Below are positions 3,965 to 53,141 of a stretch of 64,000 nucleotides of DNA, piece by piece. Made by a program: the position numbers and the translations under genes. The notes below the pieces were generated by a model, which saw nothing but the letters and a program-made list of their open reading frames with translations, was not told where the DNA came from and ran no database searches. Source of the stretch: Erysipelotrichaceae bacterium. GTDB taxonomy: Bacteria > Bacillota_I > Bacilli_A > Erysipelotrichales > Erysipelotrichaceae. The DNA lies in contig JAUNIH010000003.1 in assembly GCA_030523555.1 (NCBI GenBank), positions 1 to 64,000 on the forward strand, written 5' to 3'. Numbering within the stretch: position 1 is the first letter of the stretch; each line of letters begins with the position of its first letter.

Positions 3965-4780
3965 ATGAAAAGAAAACATAAACTGGCATTAATCTATGAC
4001 TTTGATAAGACATTATCACCAAAGGATATGCAGGAATTTCATTATATCCAGTCTTTAGGTTATGAGAATGCGGCTGATTTCTGGAAGGAATGTGACCGTT
4101 TTTCTCATGAAAACAACTGTGACGGCATACTTTCGTATATGTATATGATGGTTAAAAAAGATGAGAATCTGACCAGGAAACAGTTAAGAAAAGAAGGAAA
4201 ATACATTAAGCTGTATAAAGGTGTAGATACCTGGTTTGAACGTATCAATGAATACGGTAAGCAGCACAATGTGGAAGTTGAGCACTATATTATATCTTCA
4301 GGTCTTGCCGATATCATTAAGGGCACAAAGATTGCGAAGTATTTCAAGAAGATATATGCCTGTACATATGTTTATGATAATGAAGGGAAAGTATTATGGC
4401 CTGGTAGAGTAGTCAACTATACCATGAAGACCCAGTATCTTTTCCGTATCAATAAGGGTGTACTGGCTGAAGACAATGATGAAGATCTCAACAGTTCAAC
4501 ACCTGAATCATCAAAATATATCAGACTTGAAGATATGGTTTATTTTGGTGATGGAAGTACAGATGTTCCAAGTATGAAGGTTGTGCAGCAGAATGGCGGT
4601 ATTACCATTGCGGTATTTGGTGATGATTCCAAGCGTGAAAAGGCTGAAAAGCTTTATGAAGATAAACGTGCGACTTTTGTCGTAAAGGCTGATTATTCCA
4701 AGAACAGCCGTATTGAAAAGATTGTCAAAGGCATCATTGATTCAACTGAAGCCAGAAAGAAACTGGAAAACTATAAATGA
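3965..4780 (+). CDS. HAD-superfamily phosphatase (phosphoserine phosphatase-like)
   Basis: Cytosolic haloacid-dehalogenase-type hydrolase. Motif I is DFDKTLSP near residue 13 (nucleophile Asp and acid/base Asp), motif II is the ISSG segment near residue 115, and motif IV is FGDGSTDVPSMK near residue 200 (metal-binding Asp pair). The large cap inserted between motifs I and II resembles SerB-like C1 caps. Its ribosome site is AAAGGA at 3954-3959. The stop overlaps the start of the following GH13 gene (ATGA). The position before a glycogen cluster hints at a sugar-phosphate substrate, but the sequence does not show which one. Confidence 0.8.
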   Translation: MKRKHKLALIYDFDKTLSPKDMQEFHYIQSLGYENAADFWKECDRFSHENNCDGILSYMYMMVKKDENLTRKQLRKEGKYIKLYKGVDTWFERINEYGKQHNVEVEHYIISSGLADIIKGTKIAKYFKKIYACTYVYDNEGKVLWPGRVVNYTMKTQYLFRINKGVLAEDNDEDLNSSTPESSKYIRLEDMVYFGDGSTDVPSMKVVQQNGGITIAVFGDDSKREKAEKLYEDKRATFVVKADYSKNSRIEKIVKGIIDSTEARKKLENYK

Positions 4781-6462
4781 TCAACTATACAAAGACTGAT
4801 TTTGATATTACAAAACTGGGAAGTTTCTATTCTCAGCAGAAGACCATCTTCCGTGTATTTGCCCCTGAATCAAAGGGCGTTTCCTTACATATCGCCAATC
4901 AGTCTTTTAATATGCACAGGAAAAACTATTATTATGAGATAGCGATAGGAGGAAATCTTGAAGGTTACCGCTATTACTATAAACACAGTGATGGAACTGA
5001 ATTCAGGGATCCTTTTGCGTATTATTCCGATGATAAATATTCATATATTCTCAATCCAAGAAGATTCAATGATACAAAAATTGAAGTAAAGAATAAAAAG
5101 AAAACTGTCATCTATGAAACAAGTGTCCGTGATTTTTCCTGTGATGATTCATTTCCTAATGATGTAAAAAGAAAGTTTCTTAGTCTTACTTTTGAAAATC
5201 TCAAAATAAACAATTACTATATGGCAGGCCTTGATTATCTTAAGAACCTGGGTATTTCCCATATTCAGATATTACCTGTCTTTTCTTTTGACCTTGATCG
5301 TGCGGATTATAACTGGGGTTATAATCCTTTGGCTTATAATCTTATACATTCTGATTACGTCTTACAGAAAGACAATGCCTATGCCCATGTCAATGAGTTA
5401 AGAAAAATGGTCAACTGTTTCCATGGTAATGATATCAGAGTGATTCTGGATGTGGTCTTTAATCATGTCTACAGAGCCGGTTCTTTTGATCTTGCAAAGA
5501 TGGTTGGTATGAAACATGTCTTCCGTTATAAGAGTGACGGCAAGATGGCGAATGGCACATACTGCGGCAATGAGATAAAGAGTGAAGATCTGTTTATGAG
5601 AGAATATATCGTTTATATGTGTAAGCGATATGTTGAACTTTTTGATATAGACGGTATCAGAATGGATCTTATGGGAATACTTGATTATGAAACGGTAAAC
5701 AGGATTAAGGATGAGTTAAGAGAGATCAAGCCTGAATTCATGGTCTATGGTGAAGGCTGGAATATGGGTGATGTATTGTATCCTGAAAAAAGAGCGAGTC
5801 TTAATAATGCCTCCAAGATGAAGGATATAGGCATGTTCAATGATTTCTTCAGAGAAACGATGATCAATGCGGTAGTTAAGGGTGATGTCAATCTTGAAAA
5901 GATAGAAGCCGCCTTATCCGGAAACTCTAATAATCTAAATCCCGAAACATCCATCAACTATGTTGAATGTCATGACAACAGCACTTTCTATGACAGACTT
6001 ATAGCGGATAATAATGATATTTCCATAGTTACAGCGGTACAGAAGTGTAAACTCGCACTGGGTCTTGTACTTCTATCAAAGGGTATACCTTTTATTCATG
6101 CGGGTGAAGAATTCCTAAGAACCAAGAAGATGGTGGAAAATTCGTATAACAGTGACGAATCAATCAATAAGATAGACTGGAACAGAAGAGTTGAATATAA
6201 CGATGTCTGTGATTTTACCAAGAGTCTTATAAAAATACGTAATGAATATGATTTTGATGGTGATATCAGTTTTGAAGATCATAATCCGATTCTTGTGTGT
6301 CATATCGGTAAACTTGATATCTATTTCAATCTGAGTGAACTCAGTGGAGAATACAATCTCAACTACACATCAAGACTTATCTTTGATGGTACAAATGAGA
6401 CTGATGAAATAAGGGATATCCTTGATTTTCCGCCATATTCTTTAATGATATGCACACATTAA
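4777..6462 (+). CDS. GH13 glycosidase, type I pullulanase-like debranching enzyme
   Basis: Alpha-amylase-family enzyme most like type I pullulanases, which cut alpha-1,6 branch points. The segment YNWGYNPLAYN near residue 180 matches the pullulanase signature. The catalytic triad is readable as D297 (nucleophile, in GIRMDLMG), E326 (acid, in VYGEGWNMG) and D400 (in VECHDN). At 561 residues it is shorter than usual (about 650-720), with a compact N-terminal domain and a trimmed C-terminal sheet domain. It has no signal peptide, so it probably acts on intracellular glycogen. It precedes glgCDAB by 41 bases. An exact pullulanase versus isoamylase-like role is inferred. Confidence 0.82.
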   Translation: MINYTKTDFDITKLGSFYSQQKTIFRVFAPESKGVSLHIANQSFNMHRKNYYYEIAIGGNLEGYRYYYKHSDGTEFRDPFAYYSDDKYSYILNPRRFNDTKIEVKNKKKTVIYETSVRDFSCDDSFPNDVKRKFLSLTFENLKINNYYMAGLDYLKNLGISHIQILPVFSFDLDRADYNWGYNPLAYNLIHSDYVLQKDNAYAHVNELRKMVNCFHGNDIRVILDVVFNHVYRAGSFDLAKMVGMKHVFRYKSDGKMANGTYCGNEIKSEDLFMREYIVYMCKRYVELFDIDGIRMDLMGILDYETVNRIKDELREIKPEFMVYGEGWNMGDVLYPEKRASLNNASKMKDIGMFNDFFRETMINAVVKGDVNLEKIEAALSGNSNNLNPETSINYVECHDNSTFYDRLIADNNDISIVTAVQKCKLALGLVLLSKGIPFIHAGEEFLRTKKMVENSYNSDESINKIDWNRRVEYNDVCDFTKSLIKIRNEYDFDGDISFEDHNPILVCHIGKLDIYFNLSELSGEYNLNYTSRLIFDGTNETDEIRDILDFPPYSLMICTH

Positions 6463-6466
6463 TGTG

Positions 6467-6472
6467 TATAAT
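6467..6472 (+). promoter_or_regulatory. Possible -10 box of the glgC promoter
   Basis: A perfect TATAAT preceded by TGTG lies 31 bases before the glgC start codon, between the GH13 stop and an AGAGG ribosome site at 6493-6498. No convincing -35 is visible at 16-18 bases, so it may depend on the upstream TG pairs. The glycogen genes may also be read through from upstream. Confidence 0.4.
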
Positions 6473-6503
6473 AAAGGTATACTAATATTTAAAGAGGTAA
6501 CTC

Positions 6504-7658
6504 ATGAAAAAAAATAATATGGTAGCTATGATTCTAGCAGGGGGCAGAGGTTCCAGACTTTTTGATTTGACCAAAAAAGTCGCAAAACCTGCAGTCCATT
6601 ACGGCGGCAAGTATCGTATCATCGACTTTCCGCTGTCCAATTGTGCCAACTCGCATATTCAGACAGTTGGTGTTCTTGTTCAGTATGAATCAATATTGTT
6701 GAGTTCATATTCCGCAAGAAGTTCTACCTGGGGCTTAGACTCAAAGGGTGGTGGTGTTTACGTATTATCACCTAGAGAAAAGGATGAGACCGGTTTAGGA
6801 CTTTATAACGGTACAGCTGATGCGATCTATCAGAACAGAGATTTCCTTGATCAGGAAGAAGCTGATTATGTACTGGTATTATCAGGGGATCACATCTATA
6901 AGATGGATTATGAAAAGATGCTGCAGGAACATATTGATTCCAAGGCTGATGCGACCATTGCGGTTATTGAAGTACCAATGGAAGAGGCAAGCCGTTTTGG
7001 TATCATGAACTGTGACAAGAACGACAATATCATTGAATTTGAAGAAAAGCCTAAAGAACCTAAATCAAATCTGGCATCTATGGGTATCTATATCTTCTCC
7101 TACAAGACTTTAAGAAAATATCTTGTGGATGATGCCAAGAAACAGGATTCAGCACATGACTTTGGTAAGAATATCATTCCTAATTATCTTGAAAGCGGCT
7201 TAAAGCTCAAGGCTTACCGTTTCAAGGGATACTGGAAGGATGTTGGTACTATTTCTTCCTTATGGGAAGCAAATATGGACTTACTGGAAGACAACAATGG
7301 TTTAGATCTCTTTGATCCTAACTGGAAGATCTATACTGATGACCCTGCCAATGCGCCTCAGATTATCGGTGAAAATGCGGAAATCTCTAACGCTTTAATT
7401 ACTCAGGGTGCTGTCGTTAACGGTAAGGTTAAACATTCCGTTATCTTCTCTGAAGCCAAAGTAAATGAAGACGCTGTCGTTACAGATTCTGTCGTAATGA
7501 ACAATGCGGTTATCGGAAAGGGTGCAAAACTGACAAGATGTCTGGTTATGGATGATGTCAAAGTACCTGAAAAAGCCGTTCTCGGCTCAAAGAATTCAAA
7601 AGATATCCTGCTTGTATCAAAAGCGTATCTTGCAAAGGAGGGTGTAGGCCATGAGTAA
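6504..7658 (+). CDS. glgC: Glucose-1-phosphate adenylyltransferase, catalytic subunit GlgC
   Basis: Makes ADP-glucose from ATP and glucose 1-phosphate, the committed step of glycogen synthesis. The N-terminal nucleotidyltransferase motif is [12 protein letters not shown] (about residues 11-22). [10 protein letters not shown] near residue 130 carries the catalytic Asp, and FEEKP near 178 and GYWKDVGT near 248 are family motifs. A left-handed beta-helix of hexapeptide repeats fills the C-terminal 100 residues. The 384-residue length is normal for firmicute GlgC. It overlaps glgD by 8 bases, as expected for the GlgC-GlgD heterotetramer. It would consume glucose 1-phosphate made by the GH94 phosphorylases encoded nearby. 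Confidence 0.96.
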
Positions 7659-8766
7659 AATACTGGGATTACTGAATTTTGAACCTTCATATGTGAATGT
7701 TGAAGGACTGGAAGACTACAGACCTATTTCCGCTACTTCAGTCTTGGGAAGATATCGTGTTATTGACTTTATGCTGTCAAACTTTACCAACTCCGGTATC
7801 GACAATATCAAAGTCTATCTGAAAAACAGACCACGTTCTATTGTTGAACATATCTCCGGTACAAGCTACAATATCAACTCTAAATCAGGGAACATACAGA
7901 TGCTGATGGGTGAAGGTGATTTCTCTAATAATGCCTTCTACAATGTTGATGTTCAGGCTTTCAAGACTTATATGGAATTCATCAAGACGGAAAGTGCTTC
8001 ATATGTGGTAATTGCGCCATCACATTTCATCTTTAAACAGGATTTCTCAGAAATGGTAAACTATCATGTCAAATCAAGAAATGATATTACTGTTTTATAT
8101 CAGGCTGGTACAAATCTTAATGACCACGCTTTAGGTGGAGATCTTCTTACAATTGATGAAAACGGAAGAGTTATCGCCTTTGATAAAAACCGCGGTAAAT
8201 ACAAGAAAGGTAATCTGTCTCTTGAAACATATGTAATGGATGCGATTACTTTCAAGAATCTTGTTGATGAAGCAAGTGAAACTTCAAGTCTTTATTCCTT
8301 ATCCGATATTATTGCGGATGTTGTACGTGCGATGAGAGTCGGTGCATATCAGCACAAGGGTTACTGCTCATGTGTATCTACATTAAAGGAATACCATGAA
8401 ACAAATATTGAACTGCGTCAGGAAAAACTGCTGAGTAAGCTTATTGAAGACAGTTGGCCAATATATACCAAGACCAGTGATTCAAGCCCTACACTTTACC
8501 GCGAAGGTGCTGTAGTCAAGGGTTCGATTGTAGCCAACGGCTGTCAGGTTGAAGGTACTGTTGTTGATTCGGTTATCGGAAGAAACGTTGTCATCAAAGA
8601 AGGTGCAGTTATTAAAAATTCTGTCATTCTTCCTGATACTTTCATCGATAAGAATGTAAAACTGGAAAACGCGGTTGTTGACCGTCTGGCTATTGTTACC
8701 CATATCAAGGAATTAAAGGGTACTGCTGAAAAACCAATCTATATCAAGCGCGGAGATCGTATTTAA
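7651..8766 (+). CDS. glgD: GlgD, non-catalytic partner subunit of ADP-glucose pyrophosphorylase
   Basis: Paralogue of GlgC typical of Bacillota. It keeps the nucleotidyltransferase fold and the C-terminal beta-helix (hexapeptide pattern from about residue 285). It lacks the GGxGxRL signature at the N terminus and has [11 protein letters not shown] where GlgC has [10 protein letters not shown], so the catalytic Asp context is lost. In studied firmicutes GlgD boosts GlgC activity in a mixed complex, and I infer the same here. The start overlaps glgC and the stop abuts glgA by one base. The 371-residue length is normal. Confidence 0.93.
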
Positions 8767-10208
8767 TGAAGAGGGTGCTGTTTGCCTCATTTGAATCACT
8801 TCCTTTTGTTAAGACAGGAGGACTGGCAGATGTGGTCTACGCTTTACCAAAAGCGTTAAATAAGGAAGAATTTGAAGTTAAAGTGGTCCTTCCACTGTAT
8901 AAGAGTGTCAAGGAAGATTTTTATCATGGCATGAAATATCTTGATCATATCTATGTCAAGAGCGGTCTGATAAATGAAGAGGCAAACATCTATTCCTATA
9001 TAAATGAGGGAATTGAATATTATTTTATAGAAAATGATAATTATTTCTTCAGGGATGGTGTTTACGGTTACAGGGATGATGCCTTAAGATTTTCATTCTT
9101 TAATGTAGCAGTAATCGAGATGATGATTAAACTTGATTATCATCCGGATATCATTCATGAACATGATTATCATACAGCTATACTTCCTGCATTATGTAAA
9201 CTCAACTATAAGGCTATTGAAGCCATACGTTCGATTAAACATGTCTTTACCATTCATAATCTTGCCTATCAGGGAGAATATGACAAACAGATTCTCTTTG
9301 ATTATCTGAACTTTGAAAGAGTGCATTTCAATAACGGTGATCTGCGTTTCAATGATTCCTGCAACTTTATGAAGATAGGTATCGTCTATGCGGATATCAT
9401 TACGACTGTATCAAGAACCTACGCAAAAGAGATTCAGACTCCTGAATACGGCAGAAATCTTGATATGATCTTAAAATACAGGGCTAAAGATCTCTATGGA
9501 ATAGTTAACGGTATTGATGAAAACTTCTTCAATCCAAGAAAAGACAAACTTATTCCAATGACCTTCCACAGCCGTAACTATCTTAAAGGTAAAGCCTACA
9601 ACAAGGAATATATTCAGAAGACCTTCGGATTAAGAGTTGATCCGACGGTGATGCTGGTGGGGGTGGTATCAAGACTCACCTTCCAGAAGGGATTTGATCT
9701 CTTCCTTGATTCAGTGAATGAACTGTTGAAACGTAACATTGAAGTTGCGGTTCTGGGTACAGGAGAATCAAGGTATGAGTACGGCTTCAAGATTCTTGAA
9801 GAACAGTATAAGGGTAAATTCCATTATCACTGCGGTTATGATGAAAAGATGGCCCACACGATGTATGCGGGCTTGGATATGCTGATGATGCCTTCGGCAT
9901 TTGAACCGTGTGGCATTTCTCAGCTTATAGCTATGCGTTATGGTACATTACCGTTTGTCAGAGAGACAGGTGGCTTAAAGGATACCGTAACGCCATACAA
10001 TGAATATGAAAATACGGGAACAGGTTTCTCGTTTGGTCCTTATTCAACACATGATTTTATCAAAGTGTTTGATTATGCCTATACTACCTATCACGATCAC
10101 CGTGAAAGATGGAATGGCCTGATCAGAAATGCGATGAGGGCTGATGTATCTTTTGCAGAACCTGCAAAAGAATATGAAAATCTATACAGAAAGGTGCTGG
10201 AAAAATGA
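8766..10208 (+). CDS. glgA: Glycogen synthase GlgA (GT5)
   Basis: Transfers glucose from ADP-glucose to the non-reducing end of alpha-1,4-glucan in the cytosol. KTGGLADVVYALPKAL near residue 17 is the ADP-glucose binding motif. HEHDYHTAILP near 130, TIHNLAYQG near 162, and the C-terminal Rossmann motifs SRLTFQKGFDLF near 300 and PSAFEPCGISQL near 375 (conserved Glu-x7-Glu region) are all present. The 480-residue length is typical. The start codon shares a base with the glgD stop, so translation is coupled. It overlaps glgB by ATGA. Confidence 0.96.
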   Translation: MKRVLFASFESLPFVKTGGLADVVYALPKALNKEEFEVKVVLPLYKSVKEDFYHGMKYLDHIYVKSGLINEEANIYSYINEGIEYYFIENDNYFFRDGVYGYRDDALRFSFFNVAVIEMMIKLDYHPDIIHEHDYHTAILPALCKLNYKAIEAIRSIKHVFTIHNLAYQGEYDKQILFDYLNFERVHFNNGDLRFNDSCNFMKIGIVYADIITTVSRTYAKEIQTPEYGRNLDMILKYRAKDLYGIVNGIDENFFNPRKDKLIPMTFHSRNYLKGKAYNKEYIQKTFGLRVDPTVMLVGVVSRLTFQKGFDLFLDSVNELLKRNIEVAVLGTGESRYEYGFKILEEQYKGKFHYHCGYDEKMAHTMYAGLDMLMMPSAFEPCGISQLIAMRYGTLPFVRETGGLKDTVTPYNEYENTGTGFSFGPYSTHDFIKVFDYAYTTYHDHRERWNGLIRNAMRADVSFAEPAKEYENLYRKVLEK

Positions 10209-49060: not shown

Positions 49061-49092
49061 AAAAGATACGCCTTGATTAAGGCGTATCTTTA
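49061..49092. terminator. Bidirectional terminator between the nucleoside hydrolase and the prepilin gene
   Basis: A 12-bp perfect stem AAGATACGCCTT / AAGGCGTATCTT with a GATT loop, flanked by A and T runs. It lies between two convergent genes and overlaps the prepilin stop. Confidence 0.85.
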
Positions 49093-49935
49093 GTTCTTCA
49101 CGATAGATATCAGATTGTATATCGCTTCAGCCTGTTCAATCGTTGGAGCAATACCTGTAGTTTTTCCTATTATCTGAATTGCCACCTGATAGCCTTCCGG
49201 CAGATCAGTTGGAAGTACGTAATCTTTAGCATTATATCCAACAGATATTGCCCCTGAATCGTATTTAATAGTCATATCGGAATCTACTATAAAGAATCCC
49301 AGTTTAAAATTGACATAAGTTTCGCTTCCGGCGATGCGTATTGTATCTCCCGGTCCAACATCCTTTGCAGTCAGCAGTTTGTTGACCGCTGTTACCATAC
49401 TAGGCCAGCCTTTGTCGGCTTGTACTTGAGAAAGCGTTTTTCCTATAGCGCCTTTCCCATCGCTGTTGTCATATGTCCATGCTGTCTTAGTTGAGTATGT
49501 CGGCTTGATGTTGGCTGAATTTCCTGTACCACTCCACCTGATGATTAAACCGTTGGTGCTGTCGTATGATACAGTGCAGGTACCTCCTGATACCGGGATA
49601 CCTATCCAGTTGTCATCGCCTTTATTTACGCCACCGATATTGGAGACATTGCCTTGCCAGTCATCGACTTTCTGATCCAGTTTTACGGTTACTGAATAGA
49701 CACCATTATTGTAGATGGTTGTGCCGTTATATGCGGCAGTTTTATCTTCCATAACGACTGTTGCCATAAGTTCACCATATGCTGATCTTACATTGGCGGC
49801 ATCTTTTGCTTCTCTTGATTTTTCAATACCACCTGAAAAAACCGGAAACATTATCGCTACCAGTATGGCAATTATCGCAATTACTATAAGCAGTTCCGCA
49901 AGTGTGAAACCCTTACTGTTTATATCTTTTTTCAT
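49090..49935 (-). CDS. Type IV prepilin-like protein
   Basis: Secreted or membrane-tethered prepilin of 281 residues. A short positive leader ends at Gly in KGFTLAELLIVIAIIAILVA, the type III signal cut by prepilin peptidase. The conserved Glu5 is present. A long globular head rich in Gly, Thr and Asn follows, with GGTCTVSYDSTNG. No pilus ATPase, platform or peptidase gene is in the window. It is 8 bases downstream of the MscS-type gene on the same strand. Confidence 0.85.
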   Translation of the reverse strand: MKKDINSKGFTLAELLIVIAIIAILVAIMFPVFSGGIEKSREAKDAANVRSAYGELMATVVMEDKTAAYNGTTIYNNGVYSVTVKLDQKVDDWQGNVSNIGGVNKGDDNWIGIPVSGGTCTVSYDSTNGLIIRWSGTGNSANIKPTYSTKTAWTYDNSDGKGAIGKTLSQVQADKGWPSMVTAVNKLLTAKDVGPGDTIRIAGSETYVNFKLGFFIVDSDMTIKYDSGAISVGYNAKDYVLPTDLPEGYQVAIQIIGKTTGIAPTIEQAEAIYNLISIVKN

Positions 49936-49943
49936 ATATGTTT

Positions 49944-52900
49944 TTATGGACGGGCTATATTGTTTTCTTTAAGGAGTTTGAGCAGTTCCTTATTGAGTTC
50001 TCTTGTTACCCAGTTTATGTGTAATTCCTTACATGAACATCTTACCATAATGGTAATTGATTTAGGATTGATGGCTGTTACGCCGACAAATACAGGATCA
50101 CCAACTGCACCTTCAATATTTTTACCGATTTCCGGCAGTTTTTCATCAAGAATCTTTTCAACATAATCGATATCGACATCTGCAGCCAGATCAAGTTTTA
50201 CCGTAGCTCTTGATAAATCTCTTGTCATATTGATGATGTTGCCGATCTTGGAGTTACTGAGAATCTTGACGTAATTGTCAGTATTTATTACTTTGGTCGT
50301 TCTTAAACCGATATCCATAACTGTACCACGGAAATTATCGACTGTAACGATATCACCGACTCTGAATTCACCTTCAAAGACGATGAAGATACCGGCGATG
50401 ATATCACTGATAAGACTCTGTGCACCTAAACCTATCACAAGTGACAGGATACCGGCTGAGGCAATCAGTGATGAGGCATCCATACCCAATAGATAGAGAC
50501 AATAGAAGAAACAGAAGATGGTACAGCCATACTTCACAACTGATAGAATCAGATGTCCGATTGTTTCTGATTTAGGACCAAGCACATTGGTAAAGAGATT
50601 TATTATCAGATTGATGATAGACATAGCGGTAACCATCATGACAATAACACCTACACATGCTGTAAGTGCAAAGACATTAAGAGCTCGATCCCACTGTCCA
50701 CTGATGATAAACAGTACAAGTGAATCAGAAGGAAGTTTTGTACGTAAACCGATAAACATCATAATGATATAGATGGTAACGATACCTAATAGTACATTGA
50801 CGATTGTGAACAGTTTCTGTTCAGGTGTCTTCTGGTTCCATGGAATACCCATATTCGTCCAGCGGCTTCTGGCACTTAAAGTATTCTTTTCTTTTCCTGA
50901 AGGAGATAAGATTCTGACATTTATTCCGGAATCAGAGAAGCTTGTCTTACTTAAAAGTTCTTCATACATATCTTCTTCTTTGGTGTTGGAAACAGTCGTT
51001 ATAGCTGATAAGAGTACCAGGAAGATGAAACATACAATCTCTGTTGCCAGTGTCAGCTGCAGTCTGCTTCCATAGATATTTGATGTCGGTATCGCTGTCG
51101 CAATAAAGTATGAATCAAAATCATGATATGACTGGAAATAGTCAATACCGTTTACTTTCTGGAAACCATTGTATAGACCACTGAAGGCTTTATCAGAGAT
51201 ATTTATATCAGCTGCCTTTCTGCCTATTGAAGATGCGACTGGTGAATATACGACATTATGGTCTTCACTTGTATCAAAGGCGAGCAGATATCCACCTGAA
51301 AGATTGACGTCGTTATCTAAGACATAGGTTACATCTGTTGTTGAAAGAATCGTATTCATCAGGGTTGAATCTACACATATCTGCAGTAGTGAGGTATGTG
51401 GCGTAATGGTATTTCCTGAATATGTTCCCTCAAGATATTTTTTATAGTCATATGAAGAAACATATACGGTATTGCCGTTATCATCAGTGCTTGTGTAATA
51501 GCTGAAGGTTACACCGATGTATTTGTTGTAGTTGCCCTGATCATCCATCATGCTTTCCTGGGCATATTCATCCAGAACACCATCACAGACATTACGGAAG
51601 ACATATGACTGATCTTCTTCATTCAGACTCAGGGTAAAGAACCAGTTGCTGGTAGATGTGGCAATTGTTCTGCCGCTTTCATCAAAGACATATATCGCAT
51701 CTATACCGTTATCTTTGCAGAGATTCTTTAAAGAAGAAGATTCTGTAACTGATTTTAAAGGATTTCCTTCATCATCGAGAATCTGATTCTTATTGCCGTT
51801 TTCATCATATTCAAAGTATGTTTTATTTGTCTTTTCATTAAGAACTGAAGGATTTTCTTCAAGATAATAGGCAAGGAGTTTAGCTTTGGAAATATACTGA
51901 TTGTCATAATATGTCTTTATTTCATCACGTTTAAGCTGAGCTTCTTCATAGGCGTAGTTAAAACCGTTCAAGGCTGCATCAGAAGATGTTACAGCGTTGG
52001 ATAAAGACATCATGGTCTGTGAATAATAGGTTACAGTCGCGATTATGATGGCACACGCTATGATAAGCGGCATAATCTTTAAGGCTACTGTCTTATCAAA
52101 GAAGATTTCAAAATCATCAGATTTATATAGCGTAAATTTATCTCTTTCAATATTCTTGAGCATATAGTCGTTACGGACTATCATACTGTAACTTAAAGAG
52201 ATAATCATAGCTAAGCCAAGACATAAAATCGCAACAGTTATGGTTGTAGAATTGATGCCATATAATGTCGCATTTTCCATCGCTGCCGAGATAATGGCAT
52301 AATCATCAAAACTGCGTGATACACAATAGAAATCAATACCGGATATCTTTTCGACACCGCTGTATCCATCTTCAAGAGCCTTATCACTAAGACCGCTTTC
52401 CAGATAATCAGTATCCGAAAGAATGAGATCTCCATGATTGAAATAGATATATTTACCGGTACTCTTATCTACCGCAAACAGGAAACCATCCTGTCCGACA
52501 GTAGTGTTTTCAATAAGACCGGCAATATCGGTCAGTGTCGCAAATTCTGTTTCAAGAATCTTTGTATCAGCACCGGTAATCAGGTAGTAGTTTGTTCCCT
52601 GAAATTCAACAGAACTTGAATAGAAATAATAGTCACCAAAATCATTGGTGGCATGTACGGGTTCATTATTTGTACCGTTTATCAGGGTATCAACCTGTTC
52701 AGGAGTAAAGAAATCGATATCAATAAGACTTCTTCCGTTTAAAAGTTCATCAGGAGTTATCATCATGACACCCTTTGAATCAATAACGAAAAGATACTGA
52801 ACACCGGCTCTTTCAATCAGGGAACTCCATTCAGCAGTTCTTTCTTCATTTGTTTTGTTTACAAGATCATCCATCAGTCCGTCAGTCAGAAGATACTTTA

Positions 52901-53141
52901 TATCGGTAAGAGTCTGCTGATGATTCTGATTGTATATTTCAACAAGCTGTGCCTCTTCTTGAGAGTTATCTTCAAGTGTAGCGACTACTGTATCAAGAAC
53001 CTCTTCACAGGCAGTTTTCTGCTGATTCATGGTACTTTGATACTGCATATTTGAAAGAATGCCGTACATTATCAGCATCCCTGCTATAATCAGCGCAAAA
53101 TCGACTAACGTTTTTCCAATCAGATATTTCCGGTTTTTCAT
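49944..53141 (-). CDS. MscS-type mechanosensitive channel with tandem extracellular Cache sensor domains
   Basis: Unusual 1065-residue membrane protein. An N-terminal membrane helix (about 10-30) leads to a dCache-like sensor (30-290), two further helices (about 300 and 355), and a second Cache-like sensor (about 380-700). The two sensors share a repeated pattern: YSGVEKISGIDFYCVSRSF and YNGFQKVNGIDYFQSYHDF. A helix near 725 follows, then a canonical MscS core. The pore-lining helix with SAGILSLVIGLGAQSLISD is near residues 895-915, followed by the beta domain FEGEFRVGDIVTVDNFRG. AAGGGG is the ribosome site. Ligand gating of ion flow is inferred. Confidence 0.85.
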   Translation of the reverse strand: MKNRKYLIGKTLVDFALIIAGMLIMYGILSNMQYQSTMNQQKTACEEVLDTVVATLEDNSQEEAQLVEIYNQNHQQTLTDIKYLLTDGLMDDLVNKTNEERTAEWSSLIERAGVQYLFVIDSKGVMMITPDELLNGRSLIDIDFFTPEQVDTLINGTNNEPVHATNDFGDYYFYSSSVEFQGTNYYLITGADTKILETEFATLTDIAGLIENTTVGQDGFLFAVDKSTGKYIYFNHGDLILSDTDYLESGLSDKALEDGYSGVEKISGIDFYCVSRSFDDYAIISAAMENATLYGINSTTITVAILCLGLAMIISLSYSMIVRNDYMLKNIERDKFTLYKSDDFEIFFDKTVALKIMPLIIACAIIIATVTYYSQTMMSLSNAVTSSDAALNGFNYAYEEAQLKRDEIKTYYDNQYISKAKLLAYYLEENPSVLNEKTNKTYFEYDENGNKNQILDDEGNPLKSVTESSSLKNLCKDNGIDAIYVFDESGRTIATSTSNWFFTLSLNEEDQSYVFRNVCDGVLDEYAQESMMDDQGNYNKYIGVTFSYYTSTDDNGNTVYVSSYDYKKYLEGTYSGNTITPHTSLLQICVDSTLMNTILSTTDVTYVLDNDVNLSGGYLLAFDTSEDHNVVYSPVASSIGRKAADINISDKAFSGLYNGFQKVNGIDYFQSYHDFDSYFIATAIPTSNIYGSRLQLTLATEIVCFIFLVLLSAITTVSNTKEEDMYEELLSKTSFSDSGINVRILSPSGKEKNTLSARSRWTNMGIPWNQKTPEQKLFTIVNVLLGIVTIYIIMMFIGLRTKLPSDSLVLFIISGQWDRALNVFALTACVGVIVMMVTAMSIINLIINLFTNVLGPKSETIGHLILSVVKYGCTIFCFFYCLYLLGMDASSLIASAGILSLVIGLGAQSLISDIIAGIFIVFEGEFRVGDIVTVDNFRGTVMDIGLRTTKVINTDNYVKILSNSKIGNIINMTRDLSRATVKLDLAADVDIDYVEKILDEKLPEIGKNIEGAVGDPVFVGVTAINPKSITIMVRCSCKELHINWVTRELNKELLKLLKENNIARP

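Follow-up and report, generated by a model that had tools for sequence, protein, structure and literature searches.

The window analysed here, a stretch of 64,000 nucleotides at the start of contig JAUNIH010000003.1 from a gut-dwelling Erysipelotrichaceae bacterium, contains on its minus strand (49944-53141) an intact open reading frame with an ATG start and an AAGGGG Shine-Dalgarno-like site 6 nt upstream. The frame is real and has the extent given to it in a preliminary description of this DNA. From hydropathy we identified eight transmembrane (TM) helices in its product, and the elements follow one another in the order TM1, sensor 1, TM2-TM3, sensor 2, TM4, a conserved cytoplasmic linker, TM5 and the MscS core (TM6-8, beta domain and alpha/beta domain). 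With the N-terminus inside, we deduce that both sensors are extracellular and that the MscS vestibule and the C-terminus are cytoplasmic; the pore domain is correctly oriented because TM5 adds one helix before the MscS core. The features are as follows, with the supporting evidence in brackets:

49944..53141, minus strand: open reading frame of a putative double-dCache/MscS channel, 1065 aa (intact frame; full-length homology to 45 complete relatives)
53043..53120, minus strand: TM1, residues 8-33 (hydropathy; helix 2-94 in the AF2 model)
52266..53042, minus strand: sensor 1, predicted extracellular double Cache, residues 34-292, distal module 98-192, proximal module ~193-292 (AF2, Foldseek, sub-threshold Pfam match)
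52308..52343, minus strand: repeat motif copy 1, SGIDFYCVSRSF, residues 267-278 (profile-profile comparison)
52170..52265, minus strand: TM2, residues 293-324 (hydropathy; short cytoplasmic linker after TM2, N324 D325 family-invariant)
52017..52094, minus strand: TM3, residues 350-375 (hydropathy)
51069..52016, minus strand: sensor 2, predicted extracellular double Cache, residues 376-691, distal module 431-580 (AF2, Foldseek, conservation; weak dCache_1 matches in relatives)
51117..51152, minus strand: repeat motif copy 2, NGIDYFQSYHDF, residues 664-675 (profile-profile comparison)
50982..51068, minus strand: TM4, residues 692-720 (hydropathy)
50814..50981, minus strand: cytoplasmic linker from sensor 2 to the channel, residues 721-776 (invariant columns; low model confidence)
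50742..50813, minus strand: TM5, extra helix ahead of the MscS core, residues 777-800 (hydropathy and topology reasoning)
50577..50687, minus strand: TM6, equivalent to MscS TM1, residues 819-855 (hydropathy; E. coli MscS alignment from residue 29)
50490..50570, minus strand: TM7, equivalent to MscS TM2, residues 858-884 (hydropathy, Pfam and MscS alignment)
50373..50489, minus strand: TM8, equivalent to the MscS TM3 pore helix, residues 885-923 (hydropathy, Pfam and alignment; 81% identical to relatives)
50220..50414, minus strand: MscS beta domain, PF00924 match, residues 910-974 (Pfam)
49947..50216, minus strand: MscS C-terminal alpha/beta domain, residues 976-1065 (MscS alignment; stops before the last barrel strand)

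The genome of the window has two other MscS genes, both compact and ordinary. On the minus strand at 49090-49935, starting 8 nt past the channel stop, lies a gene whose 281-aa product begins like a type IV prepilin (N_methyl match, E 3.4e-7). We rejected it as a partner of the channel, since no relative carries it beside the channel gene.

The MscS core

Searching the whole protein against Pfam returned MscS domains only; Cache matches came from separate scans of the sensor regions and from relatives. MS_channel_2nd (PF00924) matched residues 910-974 with an E-value of 2.7e-15 (56.6 bits, cut-off 20.2), and MS_channel_1st (PF21088) matched residues 868-908 with an E-value of 6e-6 (26.6 bits, cut-off 23.1). 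Residues 857-1065 align without gaps to residues 60-268 of Thermoanaerobacter MscS (E 8.6e-32), and the alignment with E. coli MscS begins at the first helix of that protein, residue 29, which corresponds to TM6. Running from TM1/TM2 of MscS through the alpha/beta domain, and taken with the eight-helix topology, these alignments give the three-helix unit and the cytoplasmic C-terminal vestibule of an MscS channel. With sequence matches down to about E 1e-32, we consider the MscS superfamily identity of the channel part certain, and the complete pore and beta domain that had been claimed are indeed there. The pore helix TM8 reads ASAGILSLVIGLGAQSLISDIIAGIFIVF; when aligned to E. coli MscS, it has leucines (ILSLVIGLGAQ) at what we take to be the gate positions.

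The last cytoplasmic barrel strand is absent, as the window protein stops where residue 268 of the 282-aa Thermoanaerobacter MscS aligns. A comparison of C-terminal tails showed that this strand (FPNVTVSQLD) is also missing in several members of a clade described below, whose channels are linked to a lipoprotein. Because several relatives lack it too, we have not treated the strand as defining for MscS membership. In most members, the last MscS strand is followed by a conserved GRKTMADF/L-like tail, which is lost in the window protein and in several members of the same lipoprotein clade.

Two predicted double-Cache sensors

The preliminary description proposed two Cache-like sensors sharing an internal repeat. 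Both repeat motifs are present, and hhalign aligned the two sensors over nearly their whole length (E 2.7e-5, probability 74%), so that at the level of sequence profiles the repeat is beyond chance and the sensors are related. Structures of the sensors were predicted with AlphaFold (AF2) fed with family alignments, giving mean pLDDT values of 86.5 for sensor 1 and 81.1 for sensor 2. In both models a long helix leaves the membrane and leads to a distal alpha/beta module, after which come a proximal module and a helix that runs back. When they were compared with the PDB using Foldseek, tandem-Cache domains (PscC, PctA, Mlp24, Tlp3, KinD, DctB and others) came at or near the top for both sensors, the best dCache match having an E-value of 4.7e-8 for sensor 1 and 4.9e-8 for sensor 2, with a probability of 1.00. 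The Cache folds on which the preliminary description had made its reading depend were thus predicted in both regions, in tandem. TM-scores were low (~0.2-0.4, with rmsd mostly of 9-12 A), which implies that the arrangement of modules either differs from that of solved dCache domains or is mispredicted. The models therefore support the fold class and not how exactly modules, helices and TM segments are placed relative to one another.

Profile matches are uneven between the two sensors. In sensor 1 (scanned at 32-295), Pfam dCache_2 gave an E-value of 4e-5 and 23.4 bits, below its curated cut-off of 26.5; among the aligned relatives, dCache_2 matched 25 of 37 members and dCache_1 matched 23 of 37. 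Sensor 2 of the window protein (scanned at 374-695) matched no Pfam family, and dCache_1 was found weakly in 11 of 35 members, so its dCache assignment comes mainly from the predicted fold. Profile searches of the PDB with the sensor alignments returned nothing meaningful. According to these results, the Cache-like nature proposed for both sensors is supported by the predicted folds, by the profile matches in relatives and by conservation over 54 loci; the count has to be revised, each sensor being predicted to be a double Cache, with four Cache modules in the protein making up two double-Cache units. We also ran a regular-expression scan for the YxxxRxWY part of the universal dCache_1 amino-acid motif. 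It was absent in all 46 full-length members, and we rejected an amino-acid ligand bound through that motif.

To see how conservation is distributed, we compared the window protein with 36 relatives. The pore helix showed 81% identity and the distal module of sensor 2 (431-580) 51%, making the latter the best conserved segment outside the channel core; TM1, the sensor 1 helix, TM2-TM3 and TM4 gave 27-30%, and the MscS alpha/beta domain 31%. The 51% in the sensor 2 distal module, against 27-34% in the helices and TM segments that surround it, is what selection on a binding site would be expected to produce, and the module that would most likely hold a ligand is thus kept in place. The distal module of sensor 1 is the sensor module that differs most between lipoprotein and non-lipoprotein clades (33% across, 43-45% within), which weakly suggests a docking or specificity surface. 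In the linker (721-776), about a dozen residues are invariant (PSG, T754, A757, R760 W761, N763, W768, E774, K776 L777). This pattern makes it a candidate transducing element, and the best candidate for relaying a signal to the channel.

Spread of the family and a lipoprotein linked to one clade

Full-length orthologues with 36-40% identity were present in 14 other genomes among 196 of Erysipelotrichaceae. A wider scan by pattern and tblastn, taking one genome per species, recovered 54 relative loci at 34-40% identity, mostly full length, and this argues that the Cache-MscS fusion has been maintained. Most of these loci come from metagenome-assembled genomes of ruminant guts (sheep, goat, cattle and others), which carry the labels Solobacterium, Erysipelotrichaceae, Lachnospiraceae, Oscillospiraceae and other Bacillota. 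The architecture had been described as rare, and our searches agree: of the ~160 listed PF00924 matches in 295 phylum genomes, just two fell in open frames longer than 500 aa, that of the window protein and that of a relative (G394, 1237 aa). The sensor 2 profile matched in three of 392 phylum genomes (the window, L110 and L111), and all three frames carry an MscS domain. The window protein is a divergent member of the family, on a long branch of 1.38 in the channel tree.

A sister subfamily (L102-L109) exists in the same bacterial family, with proteins of ~920-1000 aa, a similar eight-helix layout, an MscS domain and sequence similarity to the sensor regions of the window protein; one member matches dCache_1 with an E-value of 1.3e-4. 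In L105 (genome G173), two Cache-MscS-type genes of this subfamily stand in tandem (4098-6905 and 6905-9841), the start of the second touching the end of the first, and a hetero-oligomer is possible. In L104, a compact MscS-like gene of 262 aa (4997-5782) lies directly after a 1002-aa channel (5977-8982) on the same strand, an arrangement that would allow mixed channels. In two genomes, the channel is followed by a 382-aa lipoprotein-like gene (L107, 2120-3265; L108, 5242-6387) that does not match the NMT1-type lipoprotein described below. Two early-branching relatives, L045 (5942-6586) and L077 (9253-9897), have ~180-215 extra C-terminal residues with 41% mutual identity. We rejected a named domain for this extension, as there was no credible Pfam match; it is possibly a degenerate ATPase-like or regulatory domain.

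Downstream DNA was readable in 46 of the 54 loci, and in 27 of these the same lipoprotein gene lies directly downstream of the channel, its ATG overlapping the channel stop (ATGA) in many cases. Three of the genes (L036, L040 and L072) are masked by a longer antisense ORF and were scored by tblastn, and in L054, where the channel is truncated, the gene lies ~690 bases past the broken frame. The lipoprotein has ~354 aa and an invariant lipobox cysteine, and matches NMT1/THI5-like binding proteins (PF09084, E-values from 8e-15 to 1.5e-12). In the channel tree, a single branch with an SH-aLRT support of 100% separates its holders (26 rows) from the other members. A lipoprotein profile detected it in ten of the 196 family genomes, and all ten copies are beside a channel of the Cache-MscS family. 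Mean column identity was 70% for the lipoprotein versus 57-58% for the channel sensors. To our reading of these data, the linkage of this lipoprotein to the channel in one clade is new. An invariant YSCCR motif (residues 217-221 of the L081 copy) falls inside profile positions 212-257, the part that best matches yeast THI5/THI13, and this motif may be relevant to the choice of ligand.

No ABC ATPase or permease signatures adjoin the lipoprotein in a motif scan (as distinct from a profile search); the sole ATPase-like genes near these loci are >6 kb upstream, in L064. Beyond the lipoprotein, no pathway genes are consistently linked and the neighbours differ from locus to locus. In the genome of the window the lipoprotein is absent, both by protein search and by the profile search that found the ten copies elsewhere. 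Hence, a binding partner encoded together with its receptor, as in LuxPQ, is a property of 27 relatives and not of the window.

Possible control of the channel by extracellular ligands

Chemical gating or tuning of this channel is plausible, and the idea gains weight from the dedicated solute-binding lipoprotein of the sister clade; the osmotic-valve role suggested in the preliminary description is conjectural, with two ordinary MscS genes elsewhere in the genome. With moderate confidence, we propose that small molecules outside the cell set or tune the opening of this MscS-superfamily channel by way of the two double-Cache sensors that every subunit carries. Seven subunits around the MscS pore would raise a crown of 14 dCache sensors outside the cell. 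A ligand bound at its most likely site, the sensor 2 distal module, would shift TM3/TM4, and the signal, passing through TM4, the linker and TM5, would alter the tension or the probability of pore opening; the opened pore would then release or admit small solutes. In the lipoprotein clade, to which the window's member does not belong, the dedicated NMT1/THI5-like lipoprotein, with its anchor in the outer leaflet, would probably capture the ligand and dock on a sensor, much as LuxP docks on LuxQ. The partnerless protein of the window would bind its ligand directly. Against the ligand-tuned reading of the window protein stand its sub-threshold or absent Pfam Cache matches, the low TM-scores, the missing YxxxRxWY motif, the long branch, the lack of a lipoprotein and the missing barrel strand.

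One could argue that the protein is an ordinary tension-gated osmotic valve, in which the Cache-like domains play a mechanical or structural role (for instance in gauging crowding or contact with the cell wall) and no ligand is involved. In favour of this are the intact, conserved MscS core and the lack of the known amino-acid pocket motif; Cache domains can also serve osmosensing, and the yeast osmosensor kinase Sln1 needs its Cache domain in order to sense (PMC4822843). However, with two plain MscS genes already in the genome, the fusion channel is unlikely to be just a housekeeping valve for hypo-osmotic rescue; besides, a spacer would show far less conservation than the distal module of sensor 2 does, and across a whole clade the channel is linked to a dedicated solute-binding lipoprotein. 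We consider this explanation unlikely. A regulated exporter or uptake channel is more doubtful still. Here the protein would serve mainly to let one solute pass and not to protect against osmotic stress, with lipoprotein and sensors reporting that same solute outside. There is a precedent in MscCG of Corynebacterium, an MscS homologue that exports glutamate, and the lipoprotein comes from a transporter-type binding family (NMT1/THI5) and has no ABC partners, but the varying neighbours past the lipoprotein include no consistently linked pathway genes. Finally, the window's copy could be a decaying member of a functional family, to which we give little credence. Its branch length, the absent lipoprotein and barrel strand and the 31% identity of the alpha/beta domain would fit with decay, yet the frame runs intact through all 1065 codons, identity to relatives is 81% in the pore helix and 51% in the distal module of sensor 2, and several members of the lipoprotein clade also lack the FPNVTVSQLD strand.

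In order to contextualize the ligand-tuned channel that we favour, we compared the protein with known systems. Its parts, the MscS superfamily and dCache sensors, are known. It shares the three-helix pore unit and the beta and alpha/beta domains with MscS of E. coli and of Thermoanaerobacter tengcongensis (PDB 3t9n, 3udc), to which it adds two predicted extracellular dCache sensors, five TM helices and a conserved linker, while lacking the last barrel strand. MscK, MscM/YjeP and YbiO likewise have a long N-terminal extracytoplasmic and multi-TM part before the MscS core, but the window protein matches them in the channel core alone, from residue 816 or later, and their extracytoplasmic parts are not known to be Cache. 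The bCNG channels, cyclic-nucleotide-binding relatives of MscS, also join an MscS-type pore to a chemical sensor, which is cytoplasmic and C-terminal there and extracellular and N-terminal in the window protein. The dCache receptors PctA, Tlp3, Mlp24, KinD and DctB have the same predicted fold, a long helix with distal and proximal PAS-like modules between two TMs; in contrast to them, the window protein has a pore instead of an MCP, kinase or cyclase as output, two dCache sensors in tandem and no amino-acid motif.

The extracytoplasmic sensor of LuxQ is of Cache type. The solute-binding protein LuxP regulates this membrane protein (PMC8396549, PMC7584622), and the lipoprotein clade may be analogous in pairing an orphan binding protein with a Cache-bearing membrane protein, although LuxQ has a histidine kinase output, LuxP is of the ribose-binding type and not NMT1, and the window lacks a partner. 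The preliminary description held that Cache modules normally feed chemoreceptors and kinases, which overlooks the alpha2delta subunits of animal calcium channels, with their two dCache domains (PMC9901441). As in the window protein, two dCache domains act there on an ion channel, but alpha2delta is a separate auxiliary protein of a voltage-gated channel, with a VWA insertion and an unrelated pore. In a 2016 census of Cache outputs, ion channels appeared only through VWA_N and VGCC_alpha2, of the animal alpha2delta type (PMC4822843). Our own search of the open literature, with subscription journals outside it, found no paper on a Cache-MscS fusion. We tentatively suggest a class of extracellular-ligand-gated bacterial channels in which an MscS pore would be directly controlled by two built-in dCache sensors and, in one clade, by a ligand-capturing solute-binding lipoprotein.

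MscS channels are usually viewed as force-gated safety valves, and the Cache-MscS family offers a directly testable case of chemical MscS gating. As standard profile annotation detects the MscS part alone, similar sensors can be overlooked elsewhere. The family would be a bacterial parallel to the Cache domains acting on animal calcium channels: if our reading is true, it would correspond to alpha2delta and its pore joined in a single polypeptide, and to LuxP-LuxQ with a channel as output. Extracellular chemistry would then be tied to membrane permeability in one protein, within a protein family conserved in gut bacteria.
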